Origin: Chlorobiota bacterium
Lineage (GTDB): Bacteria > Bacteroidota > Ignavibacteria > OLB7
Assembly (NCBI GenBank): GCA_028287785.1
Contig: JAQBOZ010000028.1
Location: 186,001-250,000 of the forward strand
Length of the DNA: 64,000 nt
Reading direction: 5' to 3'
Shown: positions 1-9,345 of the stretch, piece after piece
How positions within the stretch are numbered: position 1 is the stretch's first letter
Layout of the letters: each line of letters begins with the position of its first letter
The notes under the pieces: model-generated
Told to the model about the DNA's origin: nothing
What the model saw: only the letters and a program-made list of their open reading frames with translations
The model's database searches: none
Program-made: the position numbers and the translations under genes

Positions 1-791
1 ACGGTCACGGTGTCGATCTGCCGGAATGTCATCATCACCTCCTGGGTCGTCGAGGAATCCACCCTGCTCAACACCGCCGTGACAAGGCTGTCGAGCCGCC
101 TCCTCTTGTTCCTCCCCGGCTTCCGTTGCGGGGCACCGCGCCTGACGGTGTCGGAAGCGGAGAGTCGCGACCTCGGGAACGTTATCGCCAGCCCGGTCGG
201 CACCGTCCGGGCAATCCCGGCCGTGGGCGTGATCGTCACCCGAGTCCCATCCTCCGTCCCCACCAGTGCCACCTGCGCCGTCAGATCGCGATCCAGCGGG
301 CCGAAACAGGAGGCGCGATAGCTGTTTCCAAGATCCTCCACCGGATACGCGATAAAGGTTTCCGTGCTCTGATAACGGTGGCACGTGCCGTAGACGATGA
401 CGGGAGCGTCGGCCACGAGATGGACGGCGCGCCGCTCCACCGTATCGCTCGACTCCACCAGCGCGGCCGGATCGATGGGAATCGTGATCATCTCCCCGGC
501 CGGAACGGTGAAGGGGACCCGATGTCCGCTTCCGGCGATCTCGGCGTAGCCCCGTGCCATCACCGCGGAGGTGATCGAAAGGCTGAGACGAAGGGAACTA
601 TCCAGCACAAGGTGGCTGAACTTCCCATTCGAGACGTCGCGATAGCCCCGGAAGTTCCTCTGAAACGTCATCCAGTATTCCCGGCCTCCCTCGATCGAGC
701 GCCGCTCCCGCGGCACATCCGGCTGCGCGCCCGCCCGCGAGCAGAGGAGGAAGAGCAAGGGAAGCAGCAGAACCCGGAGGGATGGAATCAT
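1..791 (-). CDS. Secreted IgGFc-binding-like protein, C-terminus cut by window edge
   Basis: The frame is open from ATG (complement of 789-791) to base 1, so at least 263 residues are present and the C-terminus lies outside the window. Residues 1-23 form a clear signal peptide (MIPSLRVLLLPLLFLLC.. to AGAQ). The next part (EYWMTFQRN, then an AVHLVADAPVIVYG stretch and TRVTITPTA) aligns by eye with the N-terminal half of the secreted protein at 6994-9345. Both look like the IgGFc-binding-like beta domain common in Bacteroidota surface proteins. The last visible part is Arg/Lys rich (KPGRNKRRRLDS), which may be an inserted linker. Ligand and function are unknown. The reading frame was found by translating the minus strand directly. 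Confidence 0.75.
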   Translation of the reverse strand, partial: MIPSLRVLLLPLLFLLCSRAGAQPDVPRERRSIEGGREYWMTFQRNFRGYRDVSNGKFSHLVLDSSLRLSLSITSAVMARGYAEIAGSGHRVPFTVPAGEMITIPIDPAALVESSDTVERRAVHLVADAPVIVYGTCHRYQSTETFIAYPVEDLGNSYRASCFGPLDRDLTAQVALVGTEDGTRVTITPTAGIARTVPTGLAITFPRSRLSASDTVRRGAPQRKPGRNKRRRLDSLVTAVLSRVDSSTTQEVMMTFRQIDTVT

Positions 792-930
792 CAATCGCGC
801 GAATGTTGTGAAGGAGCCCCGTCAACGAACAGCGAAGCAAGTTGACAGCTCGCATCCTCCGATACCATGCGATAATTCATCCCCTGGAAGCCGCCCCCCG
901 CAACGCTTTCAGCCCGGCGGCATCCACGGA

Positions 931-1283
931 TCATCTCCTCCGAAACGTATATCCCCCGGCGTTGCCGTACGCATCATAGGCCGCGTCCTCATACCCGAAA
1001 CCGTAGTTGTAAAGGCCGAACGGCCCCGGACAGGCGACCATGTACGATCCGAAGGGAACCTCCGTGCGACCGATATACCACGTGCCGTCGCCGGCCGGGC
1101 TGAAGAGGGCGCAGTCATGTCCCCGATCCGGCGGGTATGGACATCACGATTCTCCGGGATGAATGGGTCGCGCGGGGCGGCGCAACCGGCTCCGCCTCCC
1201 GTCATAACGACCGAACGCGGCGGAACTCCACCGGAACGGGCCCCGGCAGAGAAAAAATCGCGAGAGAGATCGATGAGAGTCAC
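931..1283 (-). pseudogene. C-terminal remnant of an IgGFc-binding-like protein with a frameshift
   Basis: From about 1120 down to the TGA at 931-933 one frame reads like a genuine protein end (GDGTWYIGRTEVPFGSYM, then PFGLYNYGFGYEDAAYD), the usual closing pattern of IgGFc-like surface proteins. Upstream of a run of four C (about 1117-1120 on the plus strand) that frame soon hits a stop. Protein-like sequence continues in a neighbouring frame (SLEVTLIDLSRDFF, then PRDPFIPENRDVH). One extra base in the run would join the two. No convincing start codon or ribosome site is visible. I read it as a decayed copy upstream of the intact relative at 1-791; a sequencing error in the homopolymer is the alternative. 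The rest of 792-1357 shows nothing else. Confidence 0.42.
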
Positions 1284-1357
1284 TTCCAGCGACGCGGAAA
1301 GGTCGGTTCTGTGACTAGCCGGAGAATGATGAGTGCCTGTTGTACGGGGGCGGGTGA

Positions 1358-1897
1358 TTAACGGACGTAGAGCATCCGGCGCAGTTCATGGATGCGGTTG
1401 GTCTTCAGCTCGTAGATATACATCCCGCTCGACAGCGTGGGAGACGGCAGGAACGATACCACATGGCGTCCCTTGGTCTGGTTCATATCCACAAGCGTCA
1501 CAACCTGATTATAGAAGAAATCGTGAATCCGCAGAAGCACCGGGGAATCCTCGGAGAGGGCGTAGGCGATCGTCGTCGCGGCGCCGGTCGGGCCGAACGG
1601 GTTCGGGTAATTGGGCTCCAGGAAATCGCGATCCCCCGGAACGATCGTGGAGGTATCGGCGGGCCCGCCATCGATCTTGCCCATGAACGTATCGCGCGCC
1701 GCGCCGCCATACTCCCTGAGCAGCCGGCCGTGGCAGCCGCGATCCACCAGCGGATGCAGGATGCCCCCGTCGGGATCGGGAAGGGAGAGCGGATCGATCA
1801 TCTGCGCGCTCGCCAGATGGGAGTAGAGTCCCACCCCGATCACGACAGGCATCAGTGCCCGGCATGACCGGTAGAGCCATTGGAGCTCTCGGATCAT
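1358..1897 (-). CDS. Very small type IX secretion substrate (179 aa)
   Basis: A signal peptide (about residues 1-30, ending LASAQ) is followed by roughly 60 residues without a recognised domain. The rest is almost entirely a Por-secretion/type IX sorting tail: [10 protein letters not shown], then a TTIAYAL strand, LLRIHDFF, and a closing [12 protein letters not shown] plus a basic end. Such tails are normally attached to large secreted proteins, so a protein that is mostly tail is odd. The start ATG (1895-1897) overlaps the TGA of the upstream ABC ATPase gene as ATGA, which implies translational coupling. Its cargo role is unknown. Confidence 0.7.
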
Positions 1898-2922
1898 GCC
1901 CGTGCCTGCTTTAGTGGAGCGCCATTCATTGTCACGCTGCCGGCCGGTATGCTCTCCGGATAGAGGAGGCATCGGGTGACGTGCCCGCTTCCATCGTCCC
2001 CAAGCACCGGGTGGGTGACCTTGCAATCCGCCATGACCTTGGGGCACCGGGGATGAAAATAACAGCCGCTCGGCAGATTCGCCGGGCTTGGCACGTCACC
2101 GGCCAGCACAATCCGCTCGCGACGGCGACGGGGATCGGGAATCGGCACGGCCGAGAGGAGGGCCTGCGTGTAGGGATGCTTCGGGTTGGCGTACAGGTCC
2201 TTGGCATCGGCCAGCTCCACGATCTCCCCAAGGTACATCACCGCAACGCGATCGGAGATATGCTCAACCACCGAAAGGTCGTGGGCGATAAAGAGATAGG
2301 TCAGGGCAAACTCCCGCTGAAGATCCCCCAGGAGGTTGATCACCTGCGACTGGATCGAAACGTCGAGCGCGGAGACCGGCTCATCGCAGACGATAAACTT
2401 GGGCTCCACCGAGAGCGCCCTGGCGATGCCGATACGCTGCCGCTGCCCGCCGGAGAACTCGTGCGGATAACGCCGCGCGTATTCCGGGCGCAGCCCGACG
2501 ATATCGAGCAGCTCCTGCACCCGCTTCTGAACCTCTTCATCGTTCTTGCGGAGCTTGTGAAACTTGATGATCTCGCTCAGCATCCCCCCCACCGTGATGC
2601 GTGGGTTGAGCGATGAATAGGGGTCCTGGAAGATGATCTGCATCTCGCGACGAAGGTGCCGCATCTCGGAAGGCCCCATCGCTGTAACCTCCTTCCCCTC
2701 GAACTTCACAGAGCCGCTGGTCGGCTCGATCAGCCGGAGGATCGATCGCCCCACGGTGGTCTTGCCGCATCCCGACTCCCCCACCAGGCCGAGCGTCTCA
2801 CCCCGCTTGATATCGAGGTTGACCCCGTTGACCGCCTTGACCTGCCCGACGGTCTGGGAGAAGAGGCCCTTCTTGATGGGGAAGAATTTTCTGAGATCAC
2901 GGACTTCGAGCAGATTATCCAT
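1894..2922 (-). CDS. Oligopeptide/dipeptide ABC transporter ATP-binding protein (DppF/OppF type)
   Basis: Cytoplasmic ATPase of a peptide/nickel-type ABC importer, 342 aa, the normal size. Walker [10 protein letters not shown] is at residues 48-56, the Q-loop at about 99, the signature FSGGQRQR at 156-163 and Walker B FIVCDEP at 176-182. The C-terminal oligopeptide-binding-type extension is present ([12 protein letters not shown] and the Cys-containing [11 protein letters not shown]). The long N-terminal FFPIKKGLF segment is typical of the F-type partner rather than DppD. No permease or second ATPase lies in the window. The gene is 54 nt downstream of rsmE on the same strand and overlaps the small type IX substrate gene by 4 nt. 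Confidence 0.93.
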
Positions 2923-3708: not shown

Positions 3709-4006
3709 GAATCTTCCAGAAACGTCCCCGGAACAACCGCGCCGCCGGGCCGGGGATGCCGGGACGCACGATCGCCGAAAAAAAGCAACATTCGCCTATC
3801 CGACCGAATAGTTGCCCACCGAACTGCACAATCTCGATAGATTCGAAAAATAATCCTCGCCCTTCGGGGCGGGAGCTAACAAAAAAACGGTTGACGTGTT
3901 ACGGTATGGGCGGCCAGATGCCGGTGTGAACATCCGGTTGTGAAGGAACCGTATCGGCCCGCGACCGCATCCCCTTTTCGAACGCTCGTCTTCAATTGCA
4001 TATCAC
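3709..4006. other. Divergent intergenic region between rsmE and the sigma factor gene
   Basis: No gene is seen in these 298 bp. They hold a short hairpin (CGCCC-TTCG-GGGCG, 3858-3871) followed by seven A, and a TTGACG hexamer at about 3891-3896 that could be a -35 element for the sigma factor gene, though no convincing -10 follows. Promoters for both flanking genes presumably lie here. Confidence 0.35.
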
Positions 4007-4585
4007 GTGACGTTATCGGACGTGTTCATACGGCGATCAACTCCGAAGAAGGATCTCACCGACGACGAGTTGATGCAACAAGTCCGGAAAGGGGATAATA
4101 CCGCGTTCCGCACGCTGTACGATCGTTACAAGGCGCAGATGTTCATCTACTGTCTTCGAATGGTCGGCGACCGCGATGCGGCGAAGGACGTGCTGCAGGA
4201 GGTCTTCATCAGGGTCCATACCCATCGCGATCGTTACGAGCCGGGGACGAACTTCGTCGGCTGGGTCCATACGATCGCGCGAAATCTCTGCCTGAATGCG
4301 CGCCGCGATTCAAAGGACCAGACGAGCTTCGACGAAACTGCATCGTATGGTGTGAGCACGAACACCCCGGACCCCGATATCGCGTTGCGGGAGCGGCTGG
4401 CCGGGGAAATCGGAAAGCTCCCTGAAATCTATAGAGAAGTGCTGATCCTTCGGGAATACGAGGGACATTCATATCAGGAGATCGTGAACATCACCGGGCT
4501 TGCGATGTCAACCGTGAAGTTCAGGATCTTCAAGGCGCGGGAAACCCTCCGCGAACGCCTCGCCTGGGGCCTCGACGAGTTGTGA
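4007..4585 (+). CDS. ECF-type RNA polymerase sigma factor (sigma-70 family)
   Basis: 192 aa with the two ECF domains. Region 2 (TAFRTLYDRYKAQMFIYC.., DAAKDVLQEVFIRV, GWVHTIARNLCLN) binds core polymerase and the -10 element. Region 4 (LPEIYREVLILREYEG, YQEIVNITGLAMSTVKFRI) is the helix-turn-helix for the -35 element. The start is a GTG at 4007; another in-frame GTG at 4022 is possible and there is no upstream ATG. It is followed after 36 nt by a membrane protein in the usual position of an anti-sigma factor, and then by a lipoprotein and a secreted protein, so it probably controls a cell-envelope programme that may include its own operon. Confidence 0.92.
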   Translation: MTLSDVFIRRSTPKKDLTDDELMQQVRKGDNTAFRTLYDRYKAQMFIYCLRMVGDRDAAKDVLQEVFIRVHTHRDRYEPGTNFVGWVHTIARNLCLNARRDSKDQTSFDETASYGVSTNTPDPDIALRERLAGEIGKLPEIYREVLILREYEGHSYQEIVNITGLAMSTVKFRIFKARETLRERLAWGLDEL

Positions 4586-4621: not shown

Positions 4622-6136
4622 ATGATGATCAACGATACCATACAGGAGCTGTTCGAGGGATCGCTCGCCGATGAGCAATCCGCCGAGCTGTTTCATGTCC
4701 TCTCGGTGAGTCCCGAACGGCGCGTGGACTTCAACGCCTACATGGCCCTCATGGCGGCAATGCAGCGCGATCGCGCCGCGAACGCCCTTACCTCCGATGA
4801 AGATTCGGAGATCTGGGGAATCCTCGGCGGGCTTGGTGCCGCCACGATTACCACCAGCGCCGGCTCCGCCATCTGGAGCTGGCTGGCAAAGGGAGCCGCG
4901 GTTATCGCGGTCGGCGTGATCGGCTATATCCTCGGAACCACGTTTACATCGAATAAGACGGTCACAGGCGGCAACAGCATCGTCACCTCCGGTTCGAAGA
5001 CTGTCACGCAGGCAACGCCGCCATCGGTTACGCCGAACGCGGGAACGCCGACCAACGCCCGATCGAGCGCGGGAACACCCGCGAACGGGACATCGTCAGC
5101 CGGATCGCGTGCTCCGGGGGCGATATCGGGACCGGCCGTCACATCGCCCGCCCCGATTGCCAGCGCGACCTCAAGCAGCCGCATTGCGACCCCGAAGGTG
5201 CTCTATCGCGATCGCATCGTCTATCGTGATTCCGCTCCGATCACCTCCGCAGCGGACGCCGCGGCCAGGAGATCACTGTTCGCCGGCAACACAAGCTCCA
5301 GAAGCAGCAGCTCCATGAATGGAGGTAACAGCGGGAAGCAGAGCAATGGAAACGGTGGCGACGGCACAACCGCGAACACGACACAGCCGGCAACGCAGAA
5401 CTCCGCGAACGGCAACACGCCCGCGCACAGCACCGCGATCGACAGCACGAACCTGAAGACGAGCGCCTCCGCATCCCCGATCAAACCGGAGGATGCGATG
5501 GCGAACATGAGCGAGAGAAATATCCCGAGCCCGCAGATGATGACAACGGCCCTCCGCCGCAATGGCATCGAGATCGGCCTGAACGAGCGCACCGGCGCGC
5601 AGATCCTGAGGGCGAAGGGAGATGAGGCCGCGCCCATCTTCTCGACGCATCATTTAAATATCAGCTATCACTTCGGCGAGGGACGGTTCGGCCTGGGAGC
5701 GCGGCTTGGCTACGGCACCTTCCCCGTGATGACGCTTTCCTCGTCGATCACGTTCCGTAAGAACACCGACGGCAATATCAAGATTGCCGAAACCCTCTAC
5801 AGTGCCCATCCACAGTTACGCACGCAGGCGTTCACGGAGTTCTTCACGAACTACAGGATACCGTTCGGCAACAGCCTGGCGCTCTGCGCGGAGGCGGCCT
5901 ACGGCACATCGACATCGATCACGAAGGCGGGAGGTGATATCTCCCTTCTCTGGTTCCTCACCGAGCGGGTGGGAGTGCAGATGGGAGGCGGCATCAGCCA
6001 CTACTGGTACTCGCTGGATGACGACGTAACCCTGAAGCTGAACGCGGCAAGCAACGGGACATCGTTCGCGGATAATGTGAAAGCGGGCGCGGGAACGATA
6101 TTCGAACTGCGCTACGGCATGCTCTTCCATTTCTAG
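4622..6136 (+). CDS. Putative anti-sigma-like protein: inner-membrane helix, long linker and C-terminal outer-membrane beta-barrel-like domain
   Basis: 504 aa. Residues 1-75 are a soluble, helix-rich segment with no zinc-binding His/Cys motif. About 82-107 is one hydrophobic helix (WLAKGAAVIAVGVIGYILG). About 108-310 is an Asn/Ser/Thr/Gly/Pro-rich low-complexity linker containing a repeated YRDRIVYRD-like patch. About 330-504 alternates in the way of beta strands (LNISYHFGEGRFGLGARLGY, ISLLWFLTERVGVQMGGGIS) and ends LRYGMLFHF, the terminal aromatic typical of outer-membrane barrels. No separate signal peptide is visible. Position directly after an ECF sigma gene suggests an anti-sigma role for the N-terminus; this is inference, since no anti-sigma motif is recognised. 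The start is ATG 4622 or 4625. Confidence 0.7.
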   Translation: MMINDTIQELFEGSLADEQSAELFHVLSVSPERRVDFNAYMALMAAMQRDRAANALTSDEDSEIWGILGGLGAATITTSAGSAIWSWLAKGAAVIAVGVIGYILGTTFTSNKTVTGGNSIVTSGSKTVTQATPPSVTPNAGTPTNARSSAGTPANGTSSAGSRAPGAISGPAVTSPAPIASATSSSRIATPKVLYRDRIVYRDSAPITSAADAAARRSLFAGNTSSRSSSSMNGGNSGKQSNGNGGDGTTANTTQPATQNSANGNTPAHSTAIDSTNLKTSASASPIKPEDAMANMSERNIPSPQMMTTALRRNGIEIGLNERTGAQILRAKGDEAAPIFSTHHLNISYHFGEGRFGLGARLGYGTFPVMTLSSSITFRKNTDGNIKIAETLYSAHPQLRTQAFTEFFTNYRIPFGNSLALCAEAAYGTSTSITKAGGDISLLWFLTERVGVQMGGGISHYWYSLDDDVTLKLNAASNGTSFADNVKAGAGTIFELRYGMLFHF

Positions 6137-6205: not shown

Positions 6206-6946
6206 ATGATGAACGCTGATACATATGGAGCGAGCGGCTGGCGGCCGACGGCGCTTGGTCTGGCGGGCATCCTCCTGCTGGCCGGGCTCCTGAGCGCCTG
6301 CAACATCACCGGACCGGAAGATGAGCGCTGGCTCGATGTCTCATCATTCTCCTGGCCCACGGATACTCAGGCCGTAATGCACTACAAAACGGTGAAAGCG
6401 TCCTCTCCATCTCCATCTTCATATACCGTCAACATCAGGCTCGCGGATTCGACGGACAGGAGAAATGCGACGCTCAAGGACAAGCTGACCCGCATCAACC
6501 GCTGGAACCTGGCGGATCAGATCTACATGCTCGACAAGGCGAACTACTCCCACAAGGAGTACTTCATCCCGCTGAAGGATACGCTGATCGCCCTGATGTC
6601 CGAGGTAGGGGCAACCTACGCCCTGGTCGCCCCGCTCGACACGGGTCACACCTGGTACTGCTCTTACGGTGATGACAACAACCCGACACAGCAGGCAAGG
6701 ATCGTCGAGCGCTACTCCTATCGGAAGATCGAGGGAAAAATCTACAAGAATGTGATCGAGGTTAAATACAGCTCCGTGGGGAGTGTCAGCGATACCAGCT
6801 TCTGGGTCTGCTTCTATGCCCAGGGCATCGGGCTGATACAGCGCCTCAAGTATCAGATACCGATCAAATCGGATAATGCGCCCGATACTACGCCGATAGT
6901 GGAAGAGGAAACAGTGTTGACCGAGACGAACATACAACAGAAGTAA
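6206..6946 (+). CDS. Lipoprotein of unknown function
   Basis: 246 aa. The N-terminus is a lipoprotein signal with lipobox LLSAC (Cys about residue 31), preceded by an LGLAGILLLAGLL core. The mature part (WLDVSSFSWPTDTQAVMHY..., HTWYCSYGDDNN, SFWVCFYAQGIGLIQ) has no recognised family. It alternates polar and aromatic residues like a small beta-sandwich and resembles lipoproteins of about 230-250 aa found in Bacteroidota and relatives. It is 69 nt after the barrel-fusion gene and just upstream of the secreted IgGFc-like gene, so it is likely part of the sigma-factor operon and periplasmic or surface anchored. Confidence 0.75.
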   Translation: MMNADTYGASGWRPTALGLAGILLLAGLLSACNITGPEDERWLDVSSFSWPTDTQAVMHYKTVKASSPSPSSYTVNIRLADSTDRRNATLKDKLTRINRWNLADQIYMLDKANYSHKEYFIPLKDTLIALMSEVGATYALVAPLDTGHTWYCSYGDDNNPTQQARIVERYSYRKIEGKIYKNVIEVKYSSVGSVSDTSFWVCFYAQGIGLIQRLKYQIPIKSDNAPDTTPIVEEETVLTETNIQQK

Positions 6947-6993
6947 TCATGACGATGGAACCTCACCCCATCAGGTCCCATGCAAGGAAACTT

Positions 6994-9345
6994 ATGAAGC
7001 TCCAGAGATATATAACGCCCGCGCTCCTTGCGCTTGTCATCGCACTTCCGGCGATCGGCTCGCGGGCATTCGCGCAATCACCCGAGCCCCCCGCCGCGCC
7101 GGCAACCGGCACCGAATACTACGTCTCGTTTCTTCAGAACGAGGATATGGAGCACGGCGTTACGGCGAACAGGTTCATGGGATTGATGATCACGTCATCG
7201 GTCGCCACAACCGGACAGGTGGAGTATCGCGATTCCGCGACCGGCGTGCTGAATGTGAAGCCCTTCTCGGTGATCCCCGGAAAGATCGTGACCATCCCGA
7301 TTCCCCGGACCCTGGAAGCATTCGAGGAGAAGGCGCAGCCGGCGGTGCATGTCACCTCGCGCGATCCCGTCTCCGTCTTCGCCATGAACTCCCGCCTCCA
7401 GTCCGGAGCCGGCTTCGCGGCCATCCCGGTAAGCCTCTGGGGAACGCACTATCTGCCGATGACCATGCCGAACGGGCCGGGATGGCGCGCCGGCGAGTTC
7501 ACGATCGTGGCCGCGTACAACAACACTGTCATTACCATCAACCCGAGCGGAGCAACCCAGTACAAGGAGGCCGGCGCCGATATCGATGTTGTCCTTCAGA
7601 AGGGGGAAACGTTCTTCGTGCAGGGACGGATGAACCGCCCGAACGAGGATCTCAGCGTCTCGGAAATCGTCTCCACGTCGCGACCGATCGGTGTGATCAG
7701 CGGCCATGTGCAGACCCCGATCACCGCCGATCAGGCCGTCTCCTCCCCGCTCTGGACCGGCCATCAGGCGGCAATGGTCCTTACCGACTCCCTCTGGGGA
7801 AAGGAATATTTCAGCGTCCCGTCACGCTCCGGCGGCGACCGGTTCCGTCTGATGCCGGCGTTCGACGGGACCACGGTGACGATCACCCACTTCCCGCCGG
7901 GAGGGGGCATCTCCACAAAGAAAGTGACGCTCGACAGGGGCGATATTCTGGACAGCGCCGCCATCAACGGCCAGGCCATCACCGGCCCGGTTCACTGGTC
8001 GGCAAGCGGGCCGATGATCCTGATGCAGCTCAGGACGAGCGGCGCGTATGGCGATCCCGAGAACAGCCCATCCTCGGTTCCTCTCCCCGCCGCGAATAAC
8101 TTTTCGAGCTATTCCGTCTTCGTGGCGCCGGATCAGATGGGGGGCGATGCGTTCACCTCCCATACGCTGACCGTCATCGGAACCGGCGGAAGCAGCGGCA
8201 CGCCGATGGGCGGGATACGGCTGGATGGCAGGGAGCTTATCGCGATCGACCCCTCGGCCGTGGCGCAGCGGATCGGGAACACCGACTACTACTATGTTGT
8301 GATGCATATCGGCTCCGGCGGGCATATCCTCTCCTCGGACGATGGCACCCTCTTCGCCGGAACGCTTCGCGGATCAAACGGCACGCTGGCGCGCGACGCC
8401 TATGCATGGGCGCTCCCCTACTGGAGCCCCCGCATCGCCTCCGACACCCGCCCGCCGTATGTCATCACCCCCAGCGTCTCCGGCAACAAGCTCACGGCGA
8501 CCATCAGCGACAGCGCGGCATCCTACTTCAGCGGCGTTGCCGGGGTAACGGTGGTGAGAAACCCGAAGTGGCAGATCGACGGGCTGTTCGTGGCGCCGGC
8601 GCAGAGTGAGAATGTATCGGTCACGTTCACCGCCACTGCCGATCCCAGCGGCCCGCTCTGGGTTGCGCTGACCGATCGCGCGGGAAATATCGATACGGTG
8701 AAGATCAGCGACGGGATCTGCTCCCGCCCCGCGTCAGCGGATCGCGACAACATCCGGCTCTCCATGCCGGTGACGGTTGGAGCAAGGGACAGCGTCCTGA
8801 TCACCGCCAACCCGTGCGGCGATTCGGCCCGCGTCGTCTCGGTCGATCCCGGCACCGGAAACGCCGTTCCCTATATCCATGTCGGGTTCGCGCAGACCAC
8901 GCCATTCACCATTCAGGGACATGGAGCCATCCGGCTGGTGGTGACGGTGGACCCGATCGCGCAGAAGGGGAGCTATACCACCACGATCACCGTGACGCTG
9001 GACGGCGGGGTGACAATCGTCCTTCCGCTTCAGATCGAGGTGACACCTCCGGCCGGCGTCGATGCCACGGCGGAGGCGATGGACCTGACGGTCTACCCGA
9101 ATCCCTTTGCCTCGGCCACCACGATCACCGCCGGCAAACCGCTCGGCGGAAACGCCACGGTCACGATCTCCGATCAGCTTGGACGCACCATCCGGGAGAT
9201 CGCCGGAGAACGGCTGGCGGGGAAGACATCGGTCCTCTGGGATGGCCTCGACGGTCGCGGAATTATCGCCCCGACCGGGATCTATTTCATCAGGGTGAGC
9301 GATGGCGGCCATCGGGCGGTTCGGAATGTGACGCTGATCCGGTAG
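6994..9345 (+). CDS. Secreted IgGFc-binding-like protein with type IX sorting / FlgD-like tail
   Basis: 783 aa from ATG 6994, which follows AAGGAA by five bases and directly precedes a signal peptide ending AFAQ. An in-frame ATG at 6949 is the alternative. The N-terminal 430 residues form the IgGFc-binding-like domain (TEYYVSFLQNEDM.., KIVTIPIPRTLE, TVITINPSGATQY, FFVQGRMNRPNEDLSVSEI). Middle parts are beta-rich (Ig-like, FTATADPSGPLWVALTDRAG). The end carries a YPNPFASATTIT to IYFIRVSDGG sorting domain. It should be exported by Sec, carried over the outer membrane by the type IX system and attached to the surface. It is the last gene before the hairpin at 9383. Confidence 0.85.
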   Translation: MKLQRYITPALLALVIALPAIGSRAFAQSPEPPAAPATGTEYYVSFLQNEDMEHGVTANRFMGLMITSSVATTGQVEYRDSATGVLNVKPFSVIPGKIVTIPIPRTLEAFEEKAQPAVHVTSRDPVSVFAMNSRLQSGAGFAAIPVSLWGTHYLPMTMPNGPGWRAGEFTIVAAYNNTVITINPSGATQYKEAGADIDVVLQKGETFFVQGRMNRPNEDLSVSEIVSTSRPIGVISGHVQTPITADQAVSSPLWTGHQAAMVLTDSLWGKEYFSVPSRSGGDRFRLMPAFDGTTVTITHFPPGGGISTKKVTLDRGDILDSAAINGQAITGPVHWSASGPMILMQLRTSGAYGDPENSPSSVPLPAANNFSSYSVFVAPDQMGGDAFTSHTLTVIGTGGSSGTPMGGIRLDGRELIAIDPSAVAQRIGNTDYYYVVMHIGSGGHILSSDDGTLFAGTLRGSNGTLARDAYAWALPYWSPRIASDTRPPYVITPSVSGNKLTATISDSAASYFSGVAGVTVVRNPKWQIDGLFVAPAQSENVSVTFTATADPSGPLWVALTDRAGNIDTVKISDGICSRPASADRDNIRLSMPVTVGARDSVLITANPCGDSARVVSVDPGTGNAVPYIHVGFAQTTPFTIQGHGAIRLVVTVDPIAQKGSYTTTITVTLDGGVTIVLPLQIEVTPPAGVDATAEAMDLTVYPNPFASATTITAGKPLGGNATVTISDQLGRTIREIAGERLAGKTSVLWDGLDGRGIIAPTGIYFIRVSDGGHRAVRNVTLIR

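Follow-up and report, generated by a model that had tools for sequence, protein, structure and literature searches.

An ECF sigma factor operon and its relatives

The window, that is the whole stretch of 64,000 nt analysed here, corresponds to positions 186001–250000 of a draft Chlorobiota genome of 4.75 Mb and carries four consecutive genes on its forward strand. The first (4007–4585) starts with GTG and encodes a protein of 192 residues that was identified as an ECF sigma factor by the presence of both sigma2 and sigma4 regions in Pfam searches (Sigma70_r2, 3.9e-16; Sigma70_r4_2, 8.6e-14). The gene under study (4622–6136), located 36 nt 3′ of it, encodes a predicted dual-membrane anti-sigma factor of 504 residues and is followed by genes for a predicted lipoprotein (6206–6946; lipobox LLSAC, no Pfam family) and for a 798-residue surface protein (6949–9345) matching IgGFc_binding (2.9e-37) and TIGR04183 (4.8e-8), the type A sorting tail of the type IX secretion system (T9SS). 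The open reading frame of the 504-residue protein, its coordinates, the ECF neighbour, the hydrophobic helix, the low-complexity linker and the LRYGMLFHF terminus, all noted in a preliminary description of this DNA, were found again in our analysis.

The order sigma factor, anti-sigma factor, lipoprotein and T9SS-type surface protein is kept in five of five genomes, namely the source genome and those of four orthologous loci; in all four of the latter, the lipoprotein gene directly adjoins the anti-sigma gene and the surface protein gene is present. Sequence identity across the five genomes is about 28–36% for the anti-sigma factor and the lipoprotein. In a genome scan, the close named relatives proved to be metagenome-assembled genomes recorded under Chlorobiota or Bacteroidetes, apart from one recorded under Armatimonadetes, and a scan seeded with the five-sequence alignment returned only the four known relatives. 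The entry labelled Armatimonadetes (JADZEY010000127.1) groups with Chlorobiota metagenome-assembled genomes of the same family, and its assembly label is likely wrong.

A search for homologues, proposed in the preliminary description as a check on whether the helix-linker-barrel layout always follows an ECF gene, yielded 30 loci, all from the same class. An ECF sigma gene adjoined the family gene in every one of them (30/30), and the full layout was found in 26, the remaining four encoding barrel-less paralogues of about 200 residues that share the same N-terminal domain and likewise follow ECF genes. Since a clade of barrel-bearing members to the exclusion of barrel-less ones was rejected on the sigma factor tree (p = 0.03), barrels were lost or gained within the family. 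The source genome has 32 ECF matches, about nine of which are accompanied by a long (420–632 residues), single-helix partner of this kind. When 395 genomes were sampled across the phylum, 59 were positive, including 42 from the same class; matches outside that class were mostly N-domains in short anti-sigma-like frames (152–255 residues), with two of 360–380 residues. We also observed, at locus L163 (G098:C18:240200-243200; 663–2051, forward strand), a protein beside an ECF gene that seems to combine an anti-sigma region with a helix, a CarboxypepD_reg_2 domain and a TonB C-terminal domain, and which would represent another envelope-spanning fusion next to a sigma gene.

Domain layout of the 504-residue protein

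Residues 1–77 (4622–4852, forward strand) form a class I-type anti-sigma domain with four predicted helices and the motif LHxLSVSPExR. By itself, the 504-residue protein matched no family in Pfam or NCBIfam, and its class I relationship comes via the family profile and the other family members. Compared with 177,635 PDB sequences, the N-domain family profile matched RseA (1or7, 0.006), RsrA (5frf, 0.0066) and MucA (6in7, 0.6); designed 4D2 helical repeats, which came up as the top PDB rows, were ignored as chance matches to an SPELR-like motif. Pfam analysis of 25 family N-domains revealed RseA_N in seven (best 2.4e-5) and zf-HC2 in eight (1.4e-5), and NCBIfam anti-sigma models matched 7 of 22 family members (best 1.9e-7). 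The full-length family profile, searched against the PDB, returned two weak matches only, to Tri1 and DotF. AlphaFold2 placed helices at residues 3–12, 16–29, 31–52 and 58–68 with low confidence (pLDDT about 50–60, mean 51), and a Foldseek search with this low-confidence model gave one meaningless match and nothing useful. Class I anti-sigma domains (ASDI) consist of four N-terminal helices followed by a membrane helix (PMC7406223). Membership of the N-domain in the class I superfamily (RseA/RsrA/MucA) is supported at the level of sequence profiles.

That the 504-residue protein alone belongs to no Pfam or NCBIfam family would also suit an outer-membrane protein that is not an anti-sigma factor at all, but is equipped with an unusually long signal anchor and lies beside the sigma gene by chance. 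We consider this explanation highly improbable given the ECF neighbour at all 30 loci, the homology of the N-domain both to the short, anti-sigma-like proteins that accompany other ECF genes and to RseA/RsrA, and the conservation of this domain, which is unlike that of a signal peptide. Rather than a signal peptide that is removed, an outcome that the preliminary description had named as refuting its reading, the homologues keep a conserved domain of at least 70 residues.

The predicted anti-sigma domain is followed by an inner-membrane helix at residues 78–107 (4853–4942, forward strand), delineated by hydropathy and by an AlphaFold2 helix with the same limits. A single crossing is likely but unproven because the hydrophobic region is long and rich in Ala and Gly (about 65–107), and a second Ala/Gly-rich hydrophobic stretch is present in some homologues. 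By the positive-inside rule, a cytoplasmic N-terminus is favoured only weakly (13 of 31 members, against 7 of 31 for the opposite orientation); for the 504-residue protein, we infer an N-in topology. Residues 108–313 (4943–5560, forward strand) correspond to a predicted disordered periplasmic linker, variable in the family alignment, modelled by AlphaFold2 as disordered between about residues 108 and 305, and with pLDDT values of about 25–40 over most of its length, whose composition (calculated over residues 108–310) is rich in S, A, T, G, N and P, with 12% charged residues.

The C-terminal part, residues 314–504 (5561–6136, forward strand; ending MLFHF), is predicted to fold as an eight-stranded outer-membrane beta-barrel. 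With a five-sequence input, AlphaFold2 built eight long strands between residues 315 and 503, with pLDDT values mostly of 80–87, and the top 50 PDB rows returned by Foldseek were outer-membrane beta-barrels or channels, among which the eight-stranded OmpA domain, NspA, Ail and OprF-N. Beta-type hydrophobic alternation was marked in residues 310–504 (z = 2.4), while the N-domain and the linker gave −0.4 and −0.8, respectively, and F is the last residue in 28 of the 31 full-length members of the family. These predictions give good support to the barrel proposed in the preliminary description; the soluble domain that would have spoken against it was not what the models returned.

A conserved promoter element and the predicted regulon

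About 105 nt before the start of the sigma gene lies a predicted ECF-type promoter, CTAACA-N14-GTGTTA (3876–3901, forward strand; −35 TAAC, −10 GTGTT). The element CTAACA-N14/15-GTGTTA is found ahead of the sigma gene both in the source genome and at all four orthologous loci (5/5), and occurs once in the window versus 0 in 100 shuffles. In a wider set of 44 family upstream regions, TAAC-N15-17-TGTT was found in ten, against 0.5 expected and two for the reversed control, a count that overstates independence because the ten include several closely related sequences. A palindromic operator, CTAACA...TGTTAG, was considered and rejected: the upstream regions of paralogues have the non-palindromic TGTAACTT/TGTAACC...GTGTT, consistent with an ECF promoter. 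Autoregulation of the sigma operon is predicted on this basis.

Over the five genomes, the promoter pattern occurred 38 times versus 10 for the control. In the source genome alone, it had three matches, as did the reversed control, so that the candidate regulon rests on conservation across genomes. Each of the three source-genome sites lies ahead of a gene or operon encoding T9SS-tailed proteins, and a gene for a secreted, T9SS-tailed protein of 1453 residues (L242:830-5191, G000:C28) has the same ECF-like site upstream in five of five genomes. The source genome further encodes SprA, the T9SS translocon. In light of these T9SS-type predicted targets and of SprA, the system therefore likely serves to adjust the expression of a surface-protein regulon to the state of the outer membrane. 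In three genomes (L215, L222 and L230), an ECF-like site is followed by a gene whose product, identified by eye, resembles FAD-dependent amine oxidases or UGM; it is possibly a polysaccharide gene belonging to the regulon.

Proposed mechanism and comparison with known systems

The 504-residue protein very probably holds the sigma factor in the cytoplasm, spans the inner membrane and ends in a small outer-membrane barrel. In our proposal, residues 1–77 would sequester the sigma factor, residues 78–107 would pass through the inner membrane, the flexible linker of about 200 residues would span the periplasm, and residues 314–504 would be seated in the outer membrane as an eight-stranded barrel. 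The trigger would arise at the outer membrane, whether because the barrel fails to assemble or is damaged, because the tether is pulled, or because the lipoprotein or surface protein encoded in the same operon binds; the hold on the sigma factor would then be loosened, either directly or once the linker has been cut, and the released sigma factor would transcribe its own operon and a small T9SS-type set of genes from CTAACA-N14/15-GTGTTA sites. Taken as a whole, a dual-membrane anti-sigma factor that frees its sigma factor upon a change at the outer membrane, the sigma factor then driving its own operon and T9SS-type surface proteins, is the best explanation of the data and one we hold to be likely. 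The main inference of the preliminary description, namely that the protein spans both membranes and acts as anti-sigma factor on the neighbouring ECF sigma factor, is thus well supported by the predicted barrel, the class I N-domain, the sigma adjacency across the family and the Dma precedent described below; its reading of the sequence was right. Its further suggestion, that the signal reaches the sigma factor without a proteolytic cascade, gained no support, the source genome having an RseP-type protease.

A rival model differs from this one in the release step only. Here, the protein would be a conventional, RseA-like anti-sigma factor subject to regulated proteolysis, with the barrel serving only to localize the protein or to mark faulty outer-membrane assembly: a misfolded barrel or exposed linker would lead to a cut in the periplasm, after which RseP would cut the helix and free the sigma factor. 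The relationship of the N-domain to RseA and MucA, and the length and disorder of the linker, agree with such a scheme, as does the presence of an RseP-family protease in the source genome (303 bits); matches to RseP were, however, found in 14 of 14 control genomes, and because RseP homologues are near-universal, its presence is weak evidence. In the family alignment, the linker showed no cleavage motif that is conserved, which argues against regulated proteolysis. We put the likelihood of this scheme only a little short of even.

The proposed dual-membrane architecture is itself known. The layout is not unprecedented, since proteins of this design were published in 2022–2024, those of gut Bacteroides in 2024 (PMC13088901, PMC9308784). 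Dma proteins, for dual membrane-spanning anti-sigma, have the same layout in Bacteroides thetaiotaomicron; Dma1 and Dma2 act through cognate sigma factors (PMC13088901), and Bacteroides Dma proteins repress theirs (PMC13088901, PMC9308784); the family is further characterized by sigma factors of group ECF21 and by a change in vesiculation or in an envelope regulon upon loss. A barrel-bearing anti-sigma factor of Phocaeicola vulgatus (M0N98_03760), published earlier, belongs to a pair that responds to envelope-damaging toxins (PMC9308784). As in those systems, an ECF gene is followed here by a gene for a predicted anti-sigma region, a single helix, a long disordered tether and a C-terminal outer-membrane barrel, and several copies occur per genome. 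In contrast, about 45 residues precede the helix in the named Bacteroides proteins versus about 80–100 in the Chlorobiota family, and the operon partners are a lipoprotein and a T9SS-type surface protein here, whereas DUF4943 or NigD-like genes lie beside the Bacteroides Dma type.

For sequence comparison, a Dma-type set was collected from genomes of another class, mostly of one order, and tied to named Bacteroides finegoldii, Parabacteroides distasonis and Phocaeicola massiliensis proteins. B. thetaiotaomicron Dma1 and Dma2 were represented by B. finegoldii loci that match the described Dma neighbourhoods, both B. finegoldii genes adjoining NigD-like or DUF4943 genes. Two B. finegoldii 'plasmids' (NZ_OY725958.1 and NZ_OY725915.1) carry genes of chromosomal type (rlmH, nadC and Dma-type loci) and are probably circularized chromosome fragments. 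NCBIfam NF058625 (PG0214-type), tried as a route to Dma sigma genes, was discarded as the partners were barrel-less, anti-sigma-like proteins of about 130–280 residues. Comparison of the N-domains of the Chlorobiota family with Bacteroides, Parabacteroides and Phocaeicola members by hhalign gave at most 2.3%, versus 75–99.8% for sub-families compared with their own kin within each family, and phmmer found 0 matches between the two families. Having no detected sequence relationship to Bacteroides Dma, the 504-residue protein was not filed in the Dma sequence family. Comparison of the barrels was uninformative because some Chlorobiota sub-families also miss each other.

A device with a single origin, in which the Chlorobiota protein would be a true homologue of Bacteroides Dma with an N-domain diverged beyond recognition, has appreciable standing but falls below an even chance. 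The two families share gene order and layout, their N-domains align weakly but repeatedly over a short stretch of the LWxxhE type, and union of the two sigma groups is not rejected on the sigma factor tree (AU p = 0.26). On that same tree, however, each of the two groups is a supported clade of its own (100/99 and 96/92), and both the undetectable N-domain similarity and the different number of residues before the helix speak against common descent. The recurring sub-threshold alignments pair the helix-4 region of the Chlorobiota family, VPxxAExxLWxxVxxIL, with the short Bacteroides N-terminus, VPxxxWxxIExxLP, which might represent a sigma2-binding helix alone. What seems new is a second sequence lineage of the Dma layout, built on a class I (RseA-like) anti-sigma domain. 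We advance only tentatively, and with more doubt than conviction, the further idea that, on at least two occasions in the Bacteroidota/Chlorobiota group, the joining of unrelated anti-sigma domains to outer-membrane barrels gave rise to dual-membrane anti-sigma factors, and that one branch of the lineage found here became a feedback sensor of the T9SS-secreted surface, with its lipoprotein and surface-protein partners in the same autoregulated operon.

The predicted two-membrane layout thus extends beyond one Bacteroides family: a different class of the phylum has a distinct, RseA-related family that is widespread there and reaches about nine copies in a single genome. This makes the outer-membrane tether testable as a general device for reading the envelope, and the conserved operon partners provide candidate signals, which are still missing in the Bacteroides work. 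The conserved operon points towards the type IX-secreted surface.

Other envelope-signalling systems share parts of this design. RseA and MucA have a profile-related N-domain followed by one membrane helix and are encoded next to an ECF gene, but carry an RseB-binding periplasmic domain where the present protein has a long disordered tether and a predicted outer-membrane barrel. In FecR/FecA/TonB signalling, as proposed here, the ECF sigma factor receives its signal from an outer-membrane barrel; the present protein differs in combining a predicted barrel of eight strands and the anti-sigma region in one polypeptide, in which no plug, TonB features or FecR domain were seen by Pfam or in the AlphaFold2 model, and the sigma/anti-sigma operon has no TonB receptor gene. 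The PorA-PorXY-SigP circuit of Porphyromonas gingivalis (PMC7712824) similarly links an ECF sigma factor to surface proteins with T9SS tails. There, a two-component system joins the surface to the sigma factor, and the predicted targets of the system described here are T9SS-type cargo rather than machinery.
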